Below, piece by piece: positions 14,349 to 20,964 of a DNA stretch of 26,827 nucleotides. This DNA comes from a virus. How positions within the stretch are numbered: the first letter of the stretch is position 1; each line of letters starts with the position of its first letter. A program made the position numbers and the translations under genes. Location of the stretch: IMG/VR virus record IMGVR_UViG_3300002460_000144, positions 1 through 26,827 of that record; one strand, written 5' to 3'. A model generated the notes under the pieces. That model was not told where the DNA came from, made no database searches, and was given only the letters and a program-made list of their open reading frames with translations.

Positions 14349-14861
14349 CTATGCACTTGAATCGGTTAATGTAAGACCGCCGTTCACTGTAAAATTGTAT
14401 GTGGTTATTACAACGCTGTCGCCTTCGACATCAACACTTTTTCCTTTTGATGTGAGGATGATGCTTCCGCTGTAGTAAACTTCATCTGTGCTTGTATCAT
14501 CCATACCAAGATGCGCTTCATACTCATTCCCAACAACCAGATCAACATCGCCATACCTGGTTATGTGATCGAATGAACCGGTTACGGTTATCGCTTTGCC
14601 TGCAACGTGCGGAACTGCTATGCCGCTATCACCGGAATCTTTTGCCGGAATTGCAGAACCCTGTTCGCTGAAACTCCAGTTCTTAATTCTGAAAGCAGTT
14701 GCACTTGCATAAGCTACATTGCCCTGTTTCAGATGCCCGTTTTTGCCGGAGATAACACCCGTAAGTGTGCAATACATTTCGGCACGACTCCATACAAGAG
14801 CAAGTGCGATCTGCAAAGATCTCCAGATGATTTTTAACGATTTGAATATTTTATAAATCAT
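14349..14861 (-). CDS. Tail tube protein, paralogue 2
   Basis: 170 residues. Core pattern ISGKNGHLKQGN ... RIKNWSFSEQGSAIPAKDSGD ... GSFDHITRYGDVDL ... YYSGSIILTSKGKSVDVEGDSVVITTYNFTVNGGLTLTD is the TP901/HK97-like tail-tube fold. It is clearly a duplicate of the gene at 14882-15373: many motifs are identical. Both have an extra N-terminal segment of about 25-30 residues before the first core strand; the GAGG before the ATG supports this long start. Forms the tail tube with, or in alternation to, its paralogue. Confidence 0.75.
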   Translation of the reverse strand: MIYKIFKSLKIIWRSLQIALALVWSRAEMYCTLTGVISGKNGHLKQGNVAYASATAFRIKNWSFSEQGSAIPAKDSGDSGIAVPHVAGKAITVTGSFDHITRYGDVDLVVGNEYEAHLGMDDTSTDEVYYSGSIILTSKGKSVDVEGDSVVITTYNFTVNGGLTLTDSSA

Positions 14862-14881: not shown

Positions 14882-15373
14882 CTATACTTGTGAATTATCG
14901 GTCAGTGTAAGCTCACCATTAACTGTAAAGCTGAAAGATGTCATTACAACACTATCACCTTCAACATCAACAGACTTTCCTTTCGATGTAATGAATATTG
15001 TGCCTGTGTAATACATTTCATCGCCGCTTGTATCATCCAGAATGAAAAGAACCACGTAAGATGTATGCAGTGCAAGCTCGGTTGCCTGTGCGCCGTATCT
15101 TACAATCTGGTCAAATGAGCCGGTTGTGGTTTTAGCTTTGCCGGGAACGTGAGGAACATAATCATCTGCATCACCCGAATCTTTGCAGGGTATTGCAGAA
15201 CCCTGCTCCGAGAATGACCAGTTTTTAATTCTTACCTCGGTCCCGCCCAAAGCTGTTAATTGTATTGTCCCGTTTTTGCCGGATACTACTCCTGCCAGAG
15301 TGCAATAAATTTCAATGCGACTCCATAATAGAGCGAATGTAATTCTTAAGTGTTTAATAATTTTTCTTATCAT
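14882..15373 (-). CDS. Tail tube protein, paralogue 1
   Basis: 163 residues with core SGKNGTIQL ... RIKNWSFSEQGSAIPCKDSGD ... TTGSFDQIVRYG ... YYTGTIFITSKGKSVDVEGDSVVMTSFSFTVNGELTLTD, the same fold as the paralogue at 14349-14861. It begins with a basic, partly hydrophobic extension (MIRKIIKHLRITFALLWSRIE). A strong AAGGAG before the ATG shows that the extension is translated. The 5' flank holds an 8-bp tandem repeat. Confidence 0.75.
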   Translation of the reverse strand: MIRKIIKHLRITFALLWSRIEIYCTLAGVVSGKNGTIQLTALGGTEVRIKNWSFSEQGSAIPCKDSGDADDYVPHVPGKAKTTTGSFDQIVRYGAQATELALHTSYVVLFILDDTSGDEMYYTGTIFITSKGKSVDVEGDSVVMTSFSFTVNGELTLTDNSQV

Positions 15374-15945: not shown

Positions 15946-16608
15946 TTACATAGCCAGCTTAAATTGTGATCTGAATTGTTCTAATCTTTTACAAGCTGCT
16001 TCATAGTAATCTTTGTCAATCTCAAAACCCACATAATCAAAACCCATATCTTCACAGGCGATTAAAGATGATGCACTGCCAACGTGTGTATCTAATATTT
16101 TATCATTTGGTTTTGCGTATTTGGTTAGAAGCCATTTGTAAAGGGCAATTGGTTTTTGAGTTGGATGGATATTAACAAACGGTCTATCAGTATCTAAAGA
16201 TTTGGGAGCGAAACCGCTTTCACTTCCCCTTCCATAATCAAATATTCTCAAAGCAATGTCAAAAGAAGTCCAAGCCAATTCACCATCTGAAAAAGAAAAT
16301 CCACGCTGAATTTTATTCCAGACAACCCATCCCTTATGAATAGGTAAACCAAAATAATTTCCACCCCACACAATTTGATTTTTACTTACCCTGCTTAACT
16401 CATTAAAATATTCCTGAGTTGGTATTTGTTTATCCCAATCTTTATCAAGATGTTTTTTATATCCATTAGCCTCGCAGCTTATCCCTCTTTTATATAACTC
16501 TTGGCTCATGTCCAATCCATACGGCGGGTCAACAATAGCAAGGTCGAAGTATTTATCAGAATACCTTTTCATTCCTTCCATACAATCTATGTTTTCAAAT
16601 AATCTCAA
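15946..16608 (-). CDS. DNA methyltransferase, beta class, orphan
   Basis: 220 residues. DLAIVDPPYGL has the catalytic DPPY (residues 27-30), followed by a target-recognition section, then IHPTQKP (about 148-153) and the AdoMet-binding motif LDTHVGSASSLIA (about 172-184) and YVGFEID. Catalytic motif before AdoMet motif is the order of the beta class, which methylates adenine N6 or cytosine N4. No restriction enzyme is adjacent, so it likely protects phage DNA. Starts at TTG 16608, inside a dispersed repeat; a TAA lies just upstream in frame. It sits between head and tail genes, an atypical place. Confidence 0.85.
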   Translation of the reverse strand: MRLFENIDCMEGMKRYSDKYFDLAIVDPPYGLDMSQELYKRGISCEANGYKKHLDKDWDKQIPTQEYFNELSRVSKNQIVWGGNYFGLPIHKGWVVWNKIQRGFSFSDGELAWTSFDIALRIFDYGRGSESGFAPKSLDTDRPFVNIHPTQKPIALYKWLLTKYAKPNDKILDTHVGSASSLIACEDMGFDYVGFEIDKDYYEAACKRLEQFRSQFKLAM

Positions 16609-17348: not shown

Positions 17349-18689
17349 TTAGTCAAGATCGCTTGCATAATAGAAAGCTTCATCGTGCCTTACTGTGGTA
17401 TCTGCAAGCTGATTAAAGGTTATTCTTACCTGGTGGTAAGTTGCAAGTGTAAACGGATCAATAACAACATCAAGCGCATCCCACATAGCATAGTATGCCT
17501 GGTTAAATGCACCAAGGAAAATATATTTTTCAGTTATTGATTCAGTGAACTTTGCCATTCTTCCTGCAAGTCGGTCATCGTCACCCATCAAATAAACAGG
17601 ATAACCGGATGCTTTTTCTCTTCCTCTCAAAACAGCTTCGCCATAAGCATTTGTAACAAAGCTTAATGGTCCTAAAGCAGCCTTATCACTCTTAATGCTT
17701 TTTATAGCACCAAGAATAGTTGCCCAGCTTGCAGAAGCCTGAGATGAATTGTTAATTGAAGTAAGATTCACGAGACCTTTGAACTGACCGCTCGCACCCG
17801 AACCGTGGAAGAAACCAGCCTGAAATCCGAGAGCCATTACCTGCCTTCCATCTTCCTGCAGAACAATATCAAGCGCAGGATCTGACTGGATGATAGCTTG
17901 CTTGCTTATATCAACAAAGAAACCGCCTCTTTTTGGGGTCATCGTGATTTCAGTTGTTGCAGGATCACCTTCAAGCACTGCAGCATTTTCAGTTGCAGCC
18001 CAGCCGAAAGCATTTCCGGTTGTCAGTTTTGGAATTTTAATATCGCCTTTTCTTCCCGGGAGCATTCTCAATCCCAACTGGTCAAGAATCATTTCTGCTC
18101 TCAGGGCATCAATCCACTCACCGCCAATGTGATCAGTTCCAACAAACTCACCGCCGGTTGTTGCGGTTGTGTTAACATCGGTTGCAAACCTTTGCATTCC
18201 TCTTCTTTTCATAAAGCGATGATCAAGAACTGAGTGAGGCATAAAGAAACTCAATCCTTTTTTGCTTTCGCCTCTCTTGCCGGTTACTTTTGCATACTCT
18301 TCAGAAATATCAAGCTCAGGTGAACTATCACCATTCAGCATTGCAGAGATTGCACGGCTTAAACTGTAACCTTCAACTTGTTTTTGGGTAAGCTGAATTG
18401 TCGGCTTCTGAGCTGATTCTTTAAGCTGACTGGTTGTTACATTCAAAATGAATTCTGAAAAATCAGTTGCCGGTCTGCCAAGCTTTATGTGATTATCTTT
18501 CACATCGGCAAGCTTAACACTGGCAGGCACTTTGTCTTTCCACTCATTGTAGAAAGCTTCGATGTCGGCTTTTCTTAGCTTTTCAGAATTTTCACGGTCC
18601 TCAGAAAGTTCAATTTTAACTTTCTTTTTTGCTTCGTCAAGAACTACATTCTGATCTTCCTGGCTTAGTTCATTTAATTTAGTTGGCAT
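17349..18689 (-). CDS. Internal-start capsid precursor (scaffold plus major capsid protein)
   Basis: Within the protease-capsid ORF, ATG 18687-18689 (residue 221, MPTKLNE) is preceded by AAAAGGAG (GGAG at 18697-18700) with seven bases spacing, one of the strongest ribosome sites in the window. It would give a separate 446-residue product with delta and capsid domains but no protease. This would supply many capsid subunits per protease, like lambda Nu3 made from inside gene C. Confidence 0.65.
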   Translation of the reverse strand: MPTKLNELSQEDQNVVLDEAKKKVKIELSEDRENSEKLRKADIEAFYNEWKDKVPASVKLADVKDNHIKLGRPATDFSEFILNVTTSQLKESAQKPTIQLTQKQVEGYSLSRAISAMLNGDSSPELDISEEYAKVTGKRGESKKGLSFFMPHSVLDHRFMKRRGMQRFATDVNTTATTGGEFVGTDHIGGEWIDALRAEMILDQLGLRMLPGRKGDIKIPKLTTGNAFGWAATENAAVLEGDPATTEITMTPKRGGFFVDISKQAIIQSDPALDIVLQEDGRQVMALGFQAGFFHGSGASGQFKGLVNLTSINNSSQASASWATILGAIKSIKSDKAALGPLSFVTNAYGEAVLRGREKASGYPVYLMGDDDRLAGRMAKFTESITEKYIFLGAFNQAYYAMWDALDVVIDPFTLATYHQVRITFNQLADTTVRHDEAFYYASDLD

Positions 18690-19349
18690 TTCATTGCTCC
18701 TTTTATTAATGTTTAAATTGTAATTAATTTTTTGGTCAAACTTTATGGGCAGGCCAAACTCATTAGCAAACTTTATTATCTCTTCTTTTTTCTGAAGATC
18801 AAAATAATCTGCACTGAAAACTCCCACGGTCGGCACTTCACCCATCCACGCGGAAGAACCTTCAACCGGTTTCCAGTTAAAAATTTCATAGACAGGCATT
18901 TGTGTTAAGATTGCAAGATTTTTTTCTTCGTCGTTCATTTCTTCAAGAGGCAGTTCGCGGTATTCAAGTATTTCAAAACCAACGGATGAATAAGGACGTA
19001 TGCCGTCAATAACATCATTCATCAATTCTTCACCAAGCCCGCTTTTACTGAACTTTACATCTCCGCCAAGCACTTCATCAGTCAAATATCCGTTCAGGAC
19101 CATACCGCGTTGATCTTCAATATTATGATTCATCAGAAACGGTGCACCCTGTTTTTGTTTCCATCGTGATAGTTCAACATTCTTTGGTTTAGCAAGAACT
19201 TTTAAGTTGCCCCACCATTTGGAAACAAGCGCAGGTTTATAAAATGTCATCGGAATAATTCTCTTGTCTGAATCGAAATTCACCGCGTTGTGCTCTATTG
19301 TAAAGCAATGCGGATTTTCTTTAATATATTTTGCTAATTTTTCGTCCAT
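17349..19349 (-). CDS. Prohead protease - scaffold - major capsid protein polyprotein (HK97 type)
   Basis: 666 residues. The N-terminal domain (about 1-190) matches HK97-type prohead proteases: FLMNHN with His75, and GIRPYSSVGFEI around Ser121/122. A charged helical region (about 221-375) with Lys/Glu-rich repeats resembles the scaffold/delta domain. From about 375 the HK97 capsid fold is seen: GGEFVGTDHIGGEWIDALR, DIKIPKLTTGNAFGWAATENAAV, TMTPKRGGFFVDISKQAI, SFVTNAYGEAVLRG and a C terminus ending DEAFYYASDLD. In most phages protease and capsid are separate genes. The ATG has GGAG about nine bases upstream. Confidence 0.85.
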   Translation of the reverse strand: MDEKLAKYIKENPHCFTIEHNAVNFDSDKRIIPMTFYKPALVSKWWGNLKVLAKPKNVELSRWKQKQGAPFLMNHNIEDQRGMVLNGYLTDEVLGGDVKFSKSGLGEELMNDVIDGIRPYSSVGFEILEYRELPLEEMNDEEKNLAILTQMPVYEIFNWKPVEGSSAWMGEVPTVGVFSADYFDLQKKEEIIKFANEFGLPIKFDQKINYNLNINKRSNEMPTKLNELSQEDQNVVLDEAKKKVKIELSEDRENSEKLRKADIEAFYNEWKDKVPASVKLADVKDNHIKLGRPATDFSEFILNVTTSQLKESAQKPTIQLTQKQVEGYSLSRAISAMLNGDSSPELDISEEYAKVTGKRGESKKGLSFFMPHSVLDHRFMKRRGMQRFATDVNTTATTGGEFVGTDHIGGEWIDALRAEMILDQLGLRMLPGRKGDIKIPKLTTGNAFGWAATENAAVLEGDPATTEITMTPKRGGFFVDISKQAIIQSDPALDIVLQEDGRQVMALGFQAGFFHGSGASGQFKGLVNLTSINNSSQASASWATILGAIKSIKSDKAALGPLSFVTNAYGEAVLRGREKASGYPVYLMGDDDRLAGRMAKFTESITEKYIFLGAFNQAYYAMWDALDVVIDPFTLATYHQVRITFNQLADTTVRHDEAFYYASDLD
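18687..18703 (-). promoter_or_regulatory. Internal ribosome binding site in the protease-capsid ORF
   Basis: On the mRNA AAAAGGAGCAATGAAATG. The Shine-Dalgarno and spacing are better than those of most annotated starts here. Confidence 0.7.
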
Positions 19350-19350
19350 A

Positions 19351-20964
19351 CTAATTCTCCACTAATTTTTTGTAATGTCCGTTGCCGTGTTTTTTTATGA
19401 GCAAAGCCATATCTTTTAATATCAGATGATTTCCTTCTTTTTTATTTTCAACTTCATCATCATCTTCATCATCAACCATTTTATTGTTAGTATTCACAGA
19501 ACCAGAGAAAGTAATGCCAGCCTCTTTAAGTTTTTGGTTTTCTCTTGCCAGCTCGTCAATAATATCATCAAAATCATAACCCTGCCGTTTAAGTTCTTTG
19601 GTTCTTGTAGATAGCCCGTTATTAATTGCATCGTTCGCGGCCTGGATATCTTTATAAGGATCAACCCACGCCCATCTGCGGCCAAGAAATTCGGGTTTGT
19701 TTATTCTTTCAAGCTGTGAGTAAGGAAGCTTTAAAACTCCGTTCATTATAGCCGCCTTAAGCCATTTTGTAAAGATGATATTGAGAAATGATTCGATGAT
19801 AAAATTCTGATCAACAAGCCACTGGTCGCGCTCGGTAAGCAAGCCGGAACGCATCGAAGAAAAGTTTACACTTTCAAGATCGCTTAGCCAGGCATTGTAG
19901 CTCATACCAAGAGCAACAGCAATTTTCCTGTAAAAAGCTTTTACAAAAAACGGATATTCTCCTGTAGGATAACTCGGAGCCCAATTGGAAACATCCTCGC
20001 CGGGATTAAGATAAATCGTTTCGCCGTTTGAAGCATAATTGATTAAGTTACCGCTTGCATCTTCCGTGTCACCCTGCATCTCGGTATCTCTTTCCCTTTT
20101 TACAATCATAGATTTCATTGCACCGATTCTTGCATTTATTACTGCAGCTTCATCATAGCCGTGAAGCTGGCGCATTTCCATCATCACGGGTGCAAGATGC
20201 GAAATACCTCTTACCTGGTTGCTGTGTTCAATATCATAAATATGATTAATGTATTCAGCATCGATTGCAATTCTTTTTCCGCTGCCGGAATTTCCAAGAA
20301 AAGAATACATCCCGCTTACTTCATCCTGCGGATTATATTGCCTGAAATGATACCGCACCCGTTTATTCCATTCGTTCAATTCGACACCCATTATTATCGC
20401 ATTGCTGCCGCGGACTTCGTTAAAACTTTCATCCAGCAGATCAGGCTCAATCAAATCCAATGAATAGCCGAATTTGTTTACAGATTTATCGGGGTAATAA
20501 TCACGCGCAATAAATTCACCATCACGTTTATATTGTTCGATAAGAAGCCAGAGCACCTGGGTAAACGTCAGAGACCCGCTCATTGTGCAAAAATCTTTTT
20601 TCTTCCATTCTTCCCAGGCGTTCTCAATTAAATCATTAATATTTTTATCAGGCGTGCCGTCTGCTTTCTTTACCCTCATCTGGAGTTTAAAACCATCGGG
20701 ACCTATTACATCGCTTATAAGTCTTTTTCTGTAAGCTCTGATAAGAGGATTATTCTTCCACATATCGCGTGCACGCTCACGCACTTTGCGCATATCATAT
20801 TTAATCTGCCTGTTTATGGTAGCGGTATCACTTATCCAATCGGCAACCCAGCGATTATTTTGCCCGCCGGAATAACCGAACTTCTGCAATTTTTTAAACT
20901 GCTCGCTTGCCGCCTTCCTTATAAAAGGAATTTTGAATACAATATTTCGGAAGAATTTATTCAT
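19351..20964 (-). CDS. Portal protein, lambda gpB family
   Basis: 537 residues. The sequence follows the lambda portal layout: early ARDMWKNNPLIRAYRKRLISDVIGPDGF, then GEFIARDYY, DLIEPDLLDE, YINHIYDIEHSNQVRGISHLAPVM, VNARIGAMKSMIVKRE, then GEDVSNWAPSYPTGEYPFFVKAFYRKIAVALGMSYN. The portal forms the dodecamer ring through which DNA enters the head. The start at 20964 has no Shine-Dalgarno; a dispersed repeat fills the upstream gap. The stop is one base from the ATG of the protease gene. Confidence 0.9.
   Translation of the reverse strand: MNKFFRNIVFKIPFIRKAASEQFKKLQKFGYSGGQNNRWVADWISDTATINRQIKYDMRKVRERARDMWKNNPLIRAYRKRLISDVIGPDGFKLQMRVKKADGTPDKNINDLIENAWEEWKKKDFCTMSGSLTFTQVLWLLIEQYKRDGEFIARDYYPDKSVNKFGYSLDLIEPDLLDESFNEVRGSNAIIMGVELNEWNKRVRYHFRQYNPQDEVSGMYSFLGNSGSGKRIAIDAEYINHIYDIEHSNQVRGISHLAPVMMEMRQLHGYDEAAVINARIGAMKSMIVKRERDTEMQGDTEDASGNLINYASNGETIYLNPGEDVSNWAPSYPTGEYPFFVKAFYRKIAVALGMSYNAWLSDLESVNFSSMRSGLLTERDQWLVDQNFIIESFLNIIFTKWLKAAIMNGVLKLPYSQLERINKPEFLGRRWAWVDPYKDIQAANDAINNGLSTRTKELKRQGYDFDDIIDELARENQKLKEAGITFSGSVNTNNKMVDDEDDDEVENKKEGNHLILKDMALLIKKHGNGHYKKLVEN

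Follow-up and report, generated by a model that had tools for sequence, protein, structure and literature searches.

The locus analysed here raises a question of dose. A limited number of protease copies is needed inside a shell of about 415 subunits, and fusing the protease to the capsid protein seems to impose a one-to-one ratio. The window, which is the whole 26,827-base stretch of a virus record (IMG/VR record IMGVR_UViG_3300002460_000144), contains such a fusion. Its minus strand carries the terminase large subunit, portal, capsid and head-tail genes, and a single frame joins the protease, the scaffold and the major capsid protein. Comparison with relatives makes it very likely that translation also starts within this frame, and that internal initiation is real and conserved across the fused family. 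The fusion of protease, scaffold and capsid in one gene is already known. What would be new is that the nesting of a structural product within a protease gene, known from lambda C/Nu3, here extends to the major capsid protein.

The fused gene and its domains

The portal stop codon ends one base ahead of the ATG of the fused gene. The features of the locus are as follows.

19351 to 20964, minus strand: portal gene (PF05136, E 5.7e-82), directly upstream of the fused gene
19357 to 19360, minus strand: GGAG ahead of the upstream ATG, duplex -6.4, inside the end of the portal gene
17349 to 19349, minus strand: fused gene for protease, scaffold (delta) and major capsid, 666 aa, read from 19349 down to 17349
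18849 to 19349, minus strand: S78-type prohead protease domain, residues 1-167, boundaries from the structure model
19125 to 19127, minus strand: codon of H75, invariant in a 43-sequence alignment, putative catalytic His
18984 to 18986, minus strand: codon of S122, invariant in the same 43-sequence alignment, putative catalytic Ser
18690 to 18848, minus strand: low-confidence linker, residues 168-220 (pLDDT below 50 at 169-188 and 202-225)
18697 to 18704, minus strand: internal Shine-Dalgarno (SD) sequence AAAAGGAG, duplex -7.9
18687 to 18689, minus strand: internal ATG, residue M221, with a homologous start codon in relatives
18195 to 18689, minus strand: scaffold (delta-like) region, residues 221 to about 385, helices in the model, right boundary approximate
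17352 to 18155, minus strand: capsid domain matching the R4C virion chain (8gta_A), residues 399-666
17349 to 18689, minus strand: predicted nested gene for delta and major capsid, 446 aa, proposed from the comparison of relatives

The fused chain is a full-length member of phrog_617 ('major head protein'), with protease and capsid in one frame: its residues 24-663 align with positions 20-622 of 626 (E 3.1e-65). The capsid part matches Pfam PF05065 (Phage_capsid) at residues 411-661 (E 6.8e-25). In a phmmer search against the PDB at E 0.01, the sole sequence match is 8gta_A, the virion chain of phage R4C (E 9.9e-12 over residues 399-646). The same R4C capsid is the closest match in a Foldseek search with the whole chain (E 8.8e-17). 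HK97 structures are also among the matches listed in that search, and these consist only of capsid-type shells. By family profile and fold search, the capsid part of the window gene is an HK97-fold major capsid protein.

The window protein itself has no match to the PF04586 (Peptidase S78) profile at E 0.01. This profile is matched by 38 of the 43 aligned relatives, and the domain is therefore called S78-type on the basis of the relatives and not of its own score. H75 and S122 occupy the putative catalytic places of the S78-type domain and are conserved in 43 of 43 aligned sequences, which points to a catalytic role. When the protease domain is modelled alone (pLDDT 84), its best PDB match is T4 gp21, the capsid assembly protease of T4, with a weak E value of 7e-3. 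The fold matches below T4 gp21 are much weaker and include herpesvirus proteases.

In the whole-chain model, a confident protease is followed by the low-confidence linker and then by a long helix at residues 230-270. Scaffold-like helices are found at residues 223-227 and 230-270, with more up to approximately residue 356. M221 is positioned directly ahead of the first scaffold helix. The minus-strand location, PF05065, phrog_617, the S78-type relatives and the model helices together confirm the 666-codon frame of protease, scaffold and capsid that the original prediction had described.

Elsewhere on the minus strand, two adjacent and similar open reading frames (14349-14861 and 14882-15373) both contain the pattern ..E.YCTL..GV.SGKNG.. 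and have no PHROG match. They look like a tandem duplication of a tail-type protein. A DNA methylase frame (15946-16608, minus strand, PF01555, E 5.3e-16) lies within the head-tail gene block.

The probable internal start site in the fused relatives

In the window gene, AAAAGGAG is separated from the internal ATG by seven bases (CAATGAA). Reading the sequence bears out the original prediction on this point, which had placed AAAAGGAG plus seven bases before an in-frame ATG at 18689. In the relative L002, AAAAGGAG is retained although the flanking bases differ. Of 32 listed starts in the window phage, 15 have an SD at -5 or stronger versus a background of 14%. Taken by itself, the window gene gives no signal beyond chance: 3.6% of its positions attain the duplex energy of M221 (-7.9), and GTG175 of the same gene has a slightly better duplex score. 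This single-gene test is not significant, and relatives were therefore compared.

A tblastn search with the window protein returns 59 phage records, 42 of which have at least 80% query coverage. These records include VP882, ep3 and phiHAP-1, as well as partial matches such as S-CBS1. The first-round set contains 101 genes (the window gene, 20 named fused phages, L002 and 79 of 80 viral loci). The remaining locus, L097, was left out because the frame at the start of its match is not the fused one. As a natural split, L097 is ruled out, as it is also fused.

In the first-round alignment, the linker between protease and delta is a highly variable part of the protein. An in-frame ATG is nevertheless present within this linker in all 101 genes. 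Linkers are not enriched in Met across these genes (0.0252 versus 0.0268 per codon). The median duplex energy is -6.4 kcal/mol for the best linker ATG and -2.1 for 1346 other in-frame ATGs of the 101 genes. Throughout the sets, the linker value is that of the best of one to five ATGs per gene (up to four in these 101 genes) and is corrected for this choice only in the draws from 51 representatives. Because the best of several linker ATGs was taken, random stretches of equal length were drawn from elsewhere in these representatives (<70% identity). A linker ATG with an SD at -5 or stronger occurs in 42 of the 51, whereas the 201 draws average 11 and never exceed 19. A small residue after the linker Met is enriched in the full set of 101 genes (p 1.5e-6) and is no longer enriched in the 51 representatives (p 0.19).

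The larger set consists of 226 loci from three scans, in which the protease and capsid domains were located with profile HMMs. Both domains fall in one open reading frame in 214 loci, and 213 of these have a linker ATG. The single exception, L135, has a GTG behind AAGGAG (duplex -8.8), so that all 214 fused loci have a start codon in the linker; these loci are not independent, and many are close relatives or the same phage counted twice (L098 and VP882; L174-L177 and L226). Linker GTGs with a strong SD are also found in L224, L229 and L230, and in the last two the GTG stands where relatives have ATG. The best linker ATG reaches -5 or stronger in 74/80, 51/53 and 66/80 loci of the three sets, compared with 15-17% of other in-frame ATGs. 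An SD core of at least 4 nt, located 3-14 nt upstream, precedes 174 of the 213 linker ATGs and 244 of 2989 (8%) other in-frame ATGs. In several loci, including L065, L076, L078, L099, L145, Mica and Murka, the SD is weak or absent and there is no clear substitute.

When synonymous codons are reshuffled, the linker SD weakens: the observed median is -6.4 and the reshuffled value -4.2 (213 sites, p 1e-29). The same procedure at control ATGs, one per gene, has no effect (214 sites, p 0.98). The linker SD is therefore not merely a by-product of the amino acid sequence. In all three sets, RNA structure is weaker at the linker site than at other ATGs (p <=4e-14). As shown by comparison of the relatives, the internal start codon and its signals are under selection, and the fused frame is kept.

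The SD-like runs sit between two domains, and this position would also suit an elongation pause, in which the run delays the ribosome, giving the protease time to fold ahead of the rest of the chain, and no initiation takes place. A pause requires neither a start codon nor a narrow spacing from SD to ATG nor open RNA structure, and all three are seen. A pause without initiation is a very improbable reading of the linker site.

Two minor observations concern individual loci. The linkers of L111, L116 and L171, which are binned as Sphingobacteriales, Flavobacteriaceae and SAR86, are nearly identical, and these loci probably represent a single phage group assigned to the wrong metagenome bins. 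The marine loci L007, L018, L019, L020 and L021 contain a long extra N-terminal region ahead of the protease, in which a stretch resembling EGFSQGEDGYPSNGRIAWALWGGDAG is conserved.

Unfused relatives and the cyanophage-like branch

Twelve of the 226 loci do not have both domains in one open reading frame. In four of these (L138, L153, L161 and L168), the S78 protease is encoded by a gene of its own (PF04586, E 7.5e-17 to 2.6e-50), and the capsid gene (PF05065) comes next in a different frame. One locus is split over several frames; the remaining loci run into a contig end, are fragmentary or have no recognisable protease. In L141, L169 and L172, no recognisable S78 protease is present in the same open reading frame. 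Among loci with both domains intact, 214 of 218 are fused.

In three of the four loci with separate genes, the capsid ATG overlaps the protease stop codon (TAATG twice, ATGA once). In L168, the capsid ATG starts 8 nt past the first base of the protease stop. The capsid SD lies within or across the end of the protease gene in all four, and their separate capsid genes start at the same place as the linker ATG of the fused genes. The fused genes look like the unfused layout with the stop codon removed, the frames merged and the capsid start kept. Adjacent genes could thus merge yet keep separate translation.

The cyanophage-like set contains 80 loci found with three Synechococcus phages as query, and both domains are in one open reading frame in 79 of them. 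At the homologous linker codon, 65 loci have ATG, 14 have GTG and none of the 79 has any other codon. None of the 65 loci with a linker ATG has an SD at -5 or stronger. The fold energy at the linker start of this branch is -4.8 versus -14.5. An exchange of Met for Val that is always ATG for GTG is the pattern expected of a start codon; it supports rather than proves such a role, because GTG makes up half of the Val codons in this branch and the 14 loci are not independent. This branch retains the start codon and loses the SD, which also argues against an elongation pause. A working internal start, as the original prediction had proposed for the window gene, thus gains strong support from its relatives, through the conserved linker start codon, the SD, the exchange between ATG and GTG and the starts of the unfused capsid genes.

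The internal site could instead be a relic of two ancestral genes, in a single polyprotein of which only the full-length chain is translated and all copies are cut by the protease. In agreement with this, the accessible part of PMC10892653 describes the Murka product as a single propeptide of 684 aa. Virions of the roseophage R4C, which is a member of the family, contain the capsid domain alone (the virion chain begins at residue 362 of a 629-aa open reading frame), and this is compatible with a single polyprotein too. Among all in-frame starts of R4C, the linker codon M189 has the strongest SD. The sequence and length of the linker vary freely, and a relic there would decay; the start codon is nevertheless present in 214 of 214 and 79 of 79 loci. 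Further points against a single polyprotein are an SD maintained by codon choice and, in the cyanophage-like branch, an ATG exchanged for GTG only. Taken with this evidence, an exclusively full-length product is improbable.

The opposite reading, that only the internal product matters and that the protease part is poorly translated or decaying, is a very unlikely one. Some members, for example CRP-831 and S-CBS3, have a weak upstream SD, which would fit this reading. H75 and S122 are invariant in the 43 aligned sequences, the fused frame is intact in 214 of 226 loci and four of the other 12 have a separate protease gene, all of which speak against this reading.

Proposed products and comparison with named phages

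The reading favoured with high confidence is that of one gene with two in-frame starts, a shared stop codon and two products, the internal start being family-wide. Initiation at 19349 would yield a protease-delta-capsid chain of 666 residues, and initiation at the ATG at 18689, behind the SD at 18704-18697, a delta-capsid chain of 446 residues. Both products are likely made, since neither the fused frame nor the catalytic residues have been lost. The unfused relatives show that the frame could be broken with neither protein being lost, yet 214 of 218 loci are fused, which implies the long product. Of the two chains in the original prediction, the short one draws on conservation of the internal start, while the long one is suggested by the kept frame and the invariant catalytic residues. 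The capsid-only chain had also been predicted to be abundant. This is plausible, yet it is not favoured by SD strength, as only 13 of 22 genes have an internal SD that exceeds their upstream SD in strength (p 0.48).

Long and short chains could co-assemble because the scaffold and capsid domains are common to both. The long chain would be the minor form and would bring the protease inside the prohead as a domain added to the N terminus of a shell subunit. The delta region of HK97 faces the prohead interior, and an N-terminal protease on some subunits would therefore be carried inside. After assembly, the protease would cut away the delta regions and itself, and the mature capsid domain would remain. 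A conserved internal start removes the paradox of a one-to-one ratio of protease to capsid, and protease dose could be controlled simply by the ratio of the two starts.

Judged by sequence comparison, the window gene appears to be a nested in-frame capsid gene of the lambda C/Nu3 kind, with a conserved internal start codon accompanied by initiation signals. In lambda, as proposed here, an in-frame internal start within the protease gene gives a protease-free product with the same C terminus. Unlike the window family, lambda has a separate gene for its capsid protein E, its nested product is scaffold only and its protease is annotated as S49 rather than S78. As a check of the method, lambda C was scored, and codon 309 (L107:1343) ranks first by far for SD. 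The best SD-led in-frame ATG of lambda C is thus codon 309, whereas nu3 is annotated to start at codon 239. Experiments reportedly placed the Nu3 start near codon 309 of C.

Herpesvirus UL26/UL26.5 similarly provides 3'-coterminal protease-scaffold and scaffold-only products, but UL26.5 has a second transcript and the major capsid gene is separate. HK97 gp4/gp5 contain the same parts as the window gene, namely an S78 protease, a capsid protein that begins with a delta scaffold, and the HK97 capsid fold. HK97 encodes its protease and capsid in two genes, whereas the window has one frame with an internal start. The HK97-type delta domain is described in the accessible part of PMC8508860. The accessible part of PMC10276861 gives the R4C capsid as T=7 with 415 copies.

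In MD8-like phages, protease, scaffold and capsid are in a single gene, according to the accessible part of PMC8508860. Murka (PMC10892653, accessible part) is a member of the fused family studied here. An internal start is not mentioned in the accessible parts of the MD8 (PMC8508860) or Murka (PMC10892653) descriptions. No report of an internal start in this fused family was found in the literature searched, a search whose reach excluded most subscription journals. The internal start is also unmarked in the phrog_617 family name and in the annotations of relatives that were inspected.

The proteases of MD8 and F10 are of the ClpP type, unlike the S78-type protease of the window family. A junction Met behind an AGGA- or GAGGA-type run is found in 18 of 18 F10-type sequences, which were hand-chosen from 81 (F10 and 80 loci). 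An internal start in F10 is only a weak lead, because the SD-like run falls within a conserved peptide.

A broader proposal is held with moderate confidence. Internal initiation would be universal in a very large phage capsid family, the internally started chain would be the true major capsid precursor and the annotated 'major capsid protein' would be a minor, protease-bearing form. How much protease each prohead receives would depend on the ratio between two starts on one message. The layout may have recurred with a ClpP-type protease in the F10 lineage and may work SD-free in cyanophage-like members. The capsid genes of many records would then carry the wrong main start.

The family phrog_4523 combines parts of both types. 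Its first half matches the S78 proteases of phrog_617-type proteins and its second half matches the F10-type capsid, and mosaic swapping of protease and capsid halves is therefore suggested.
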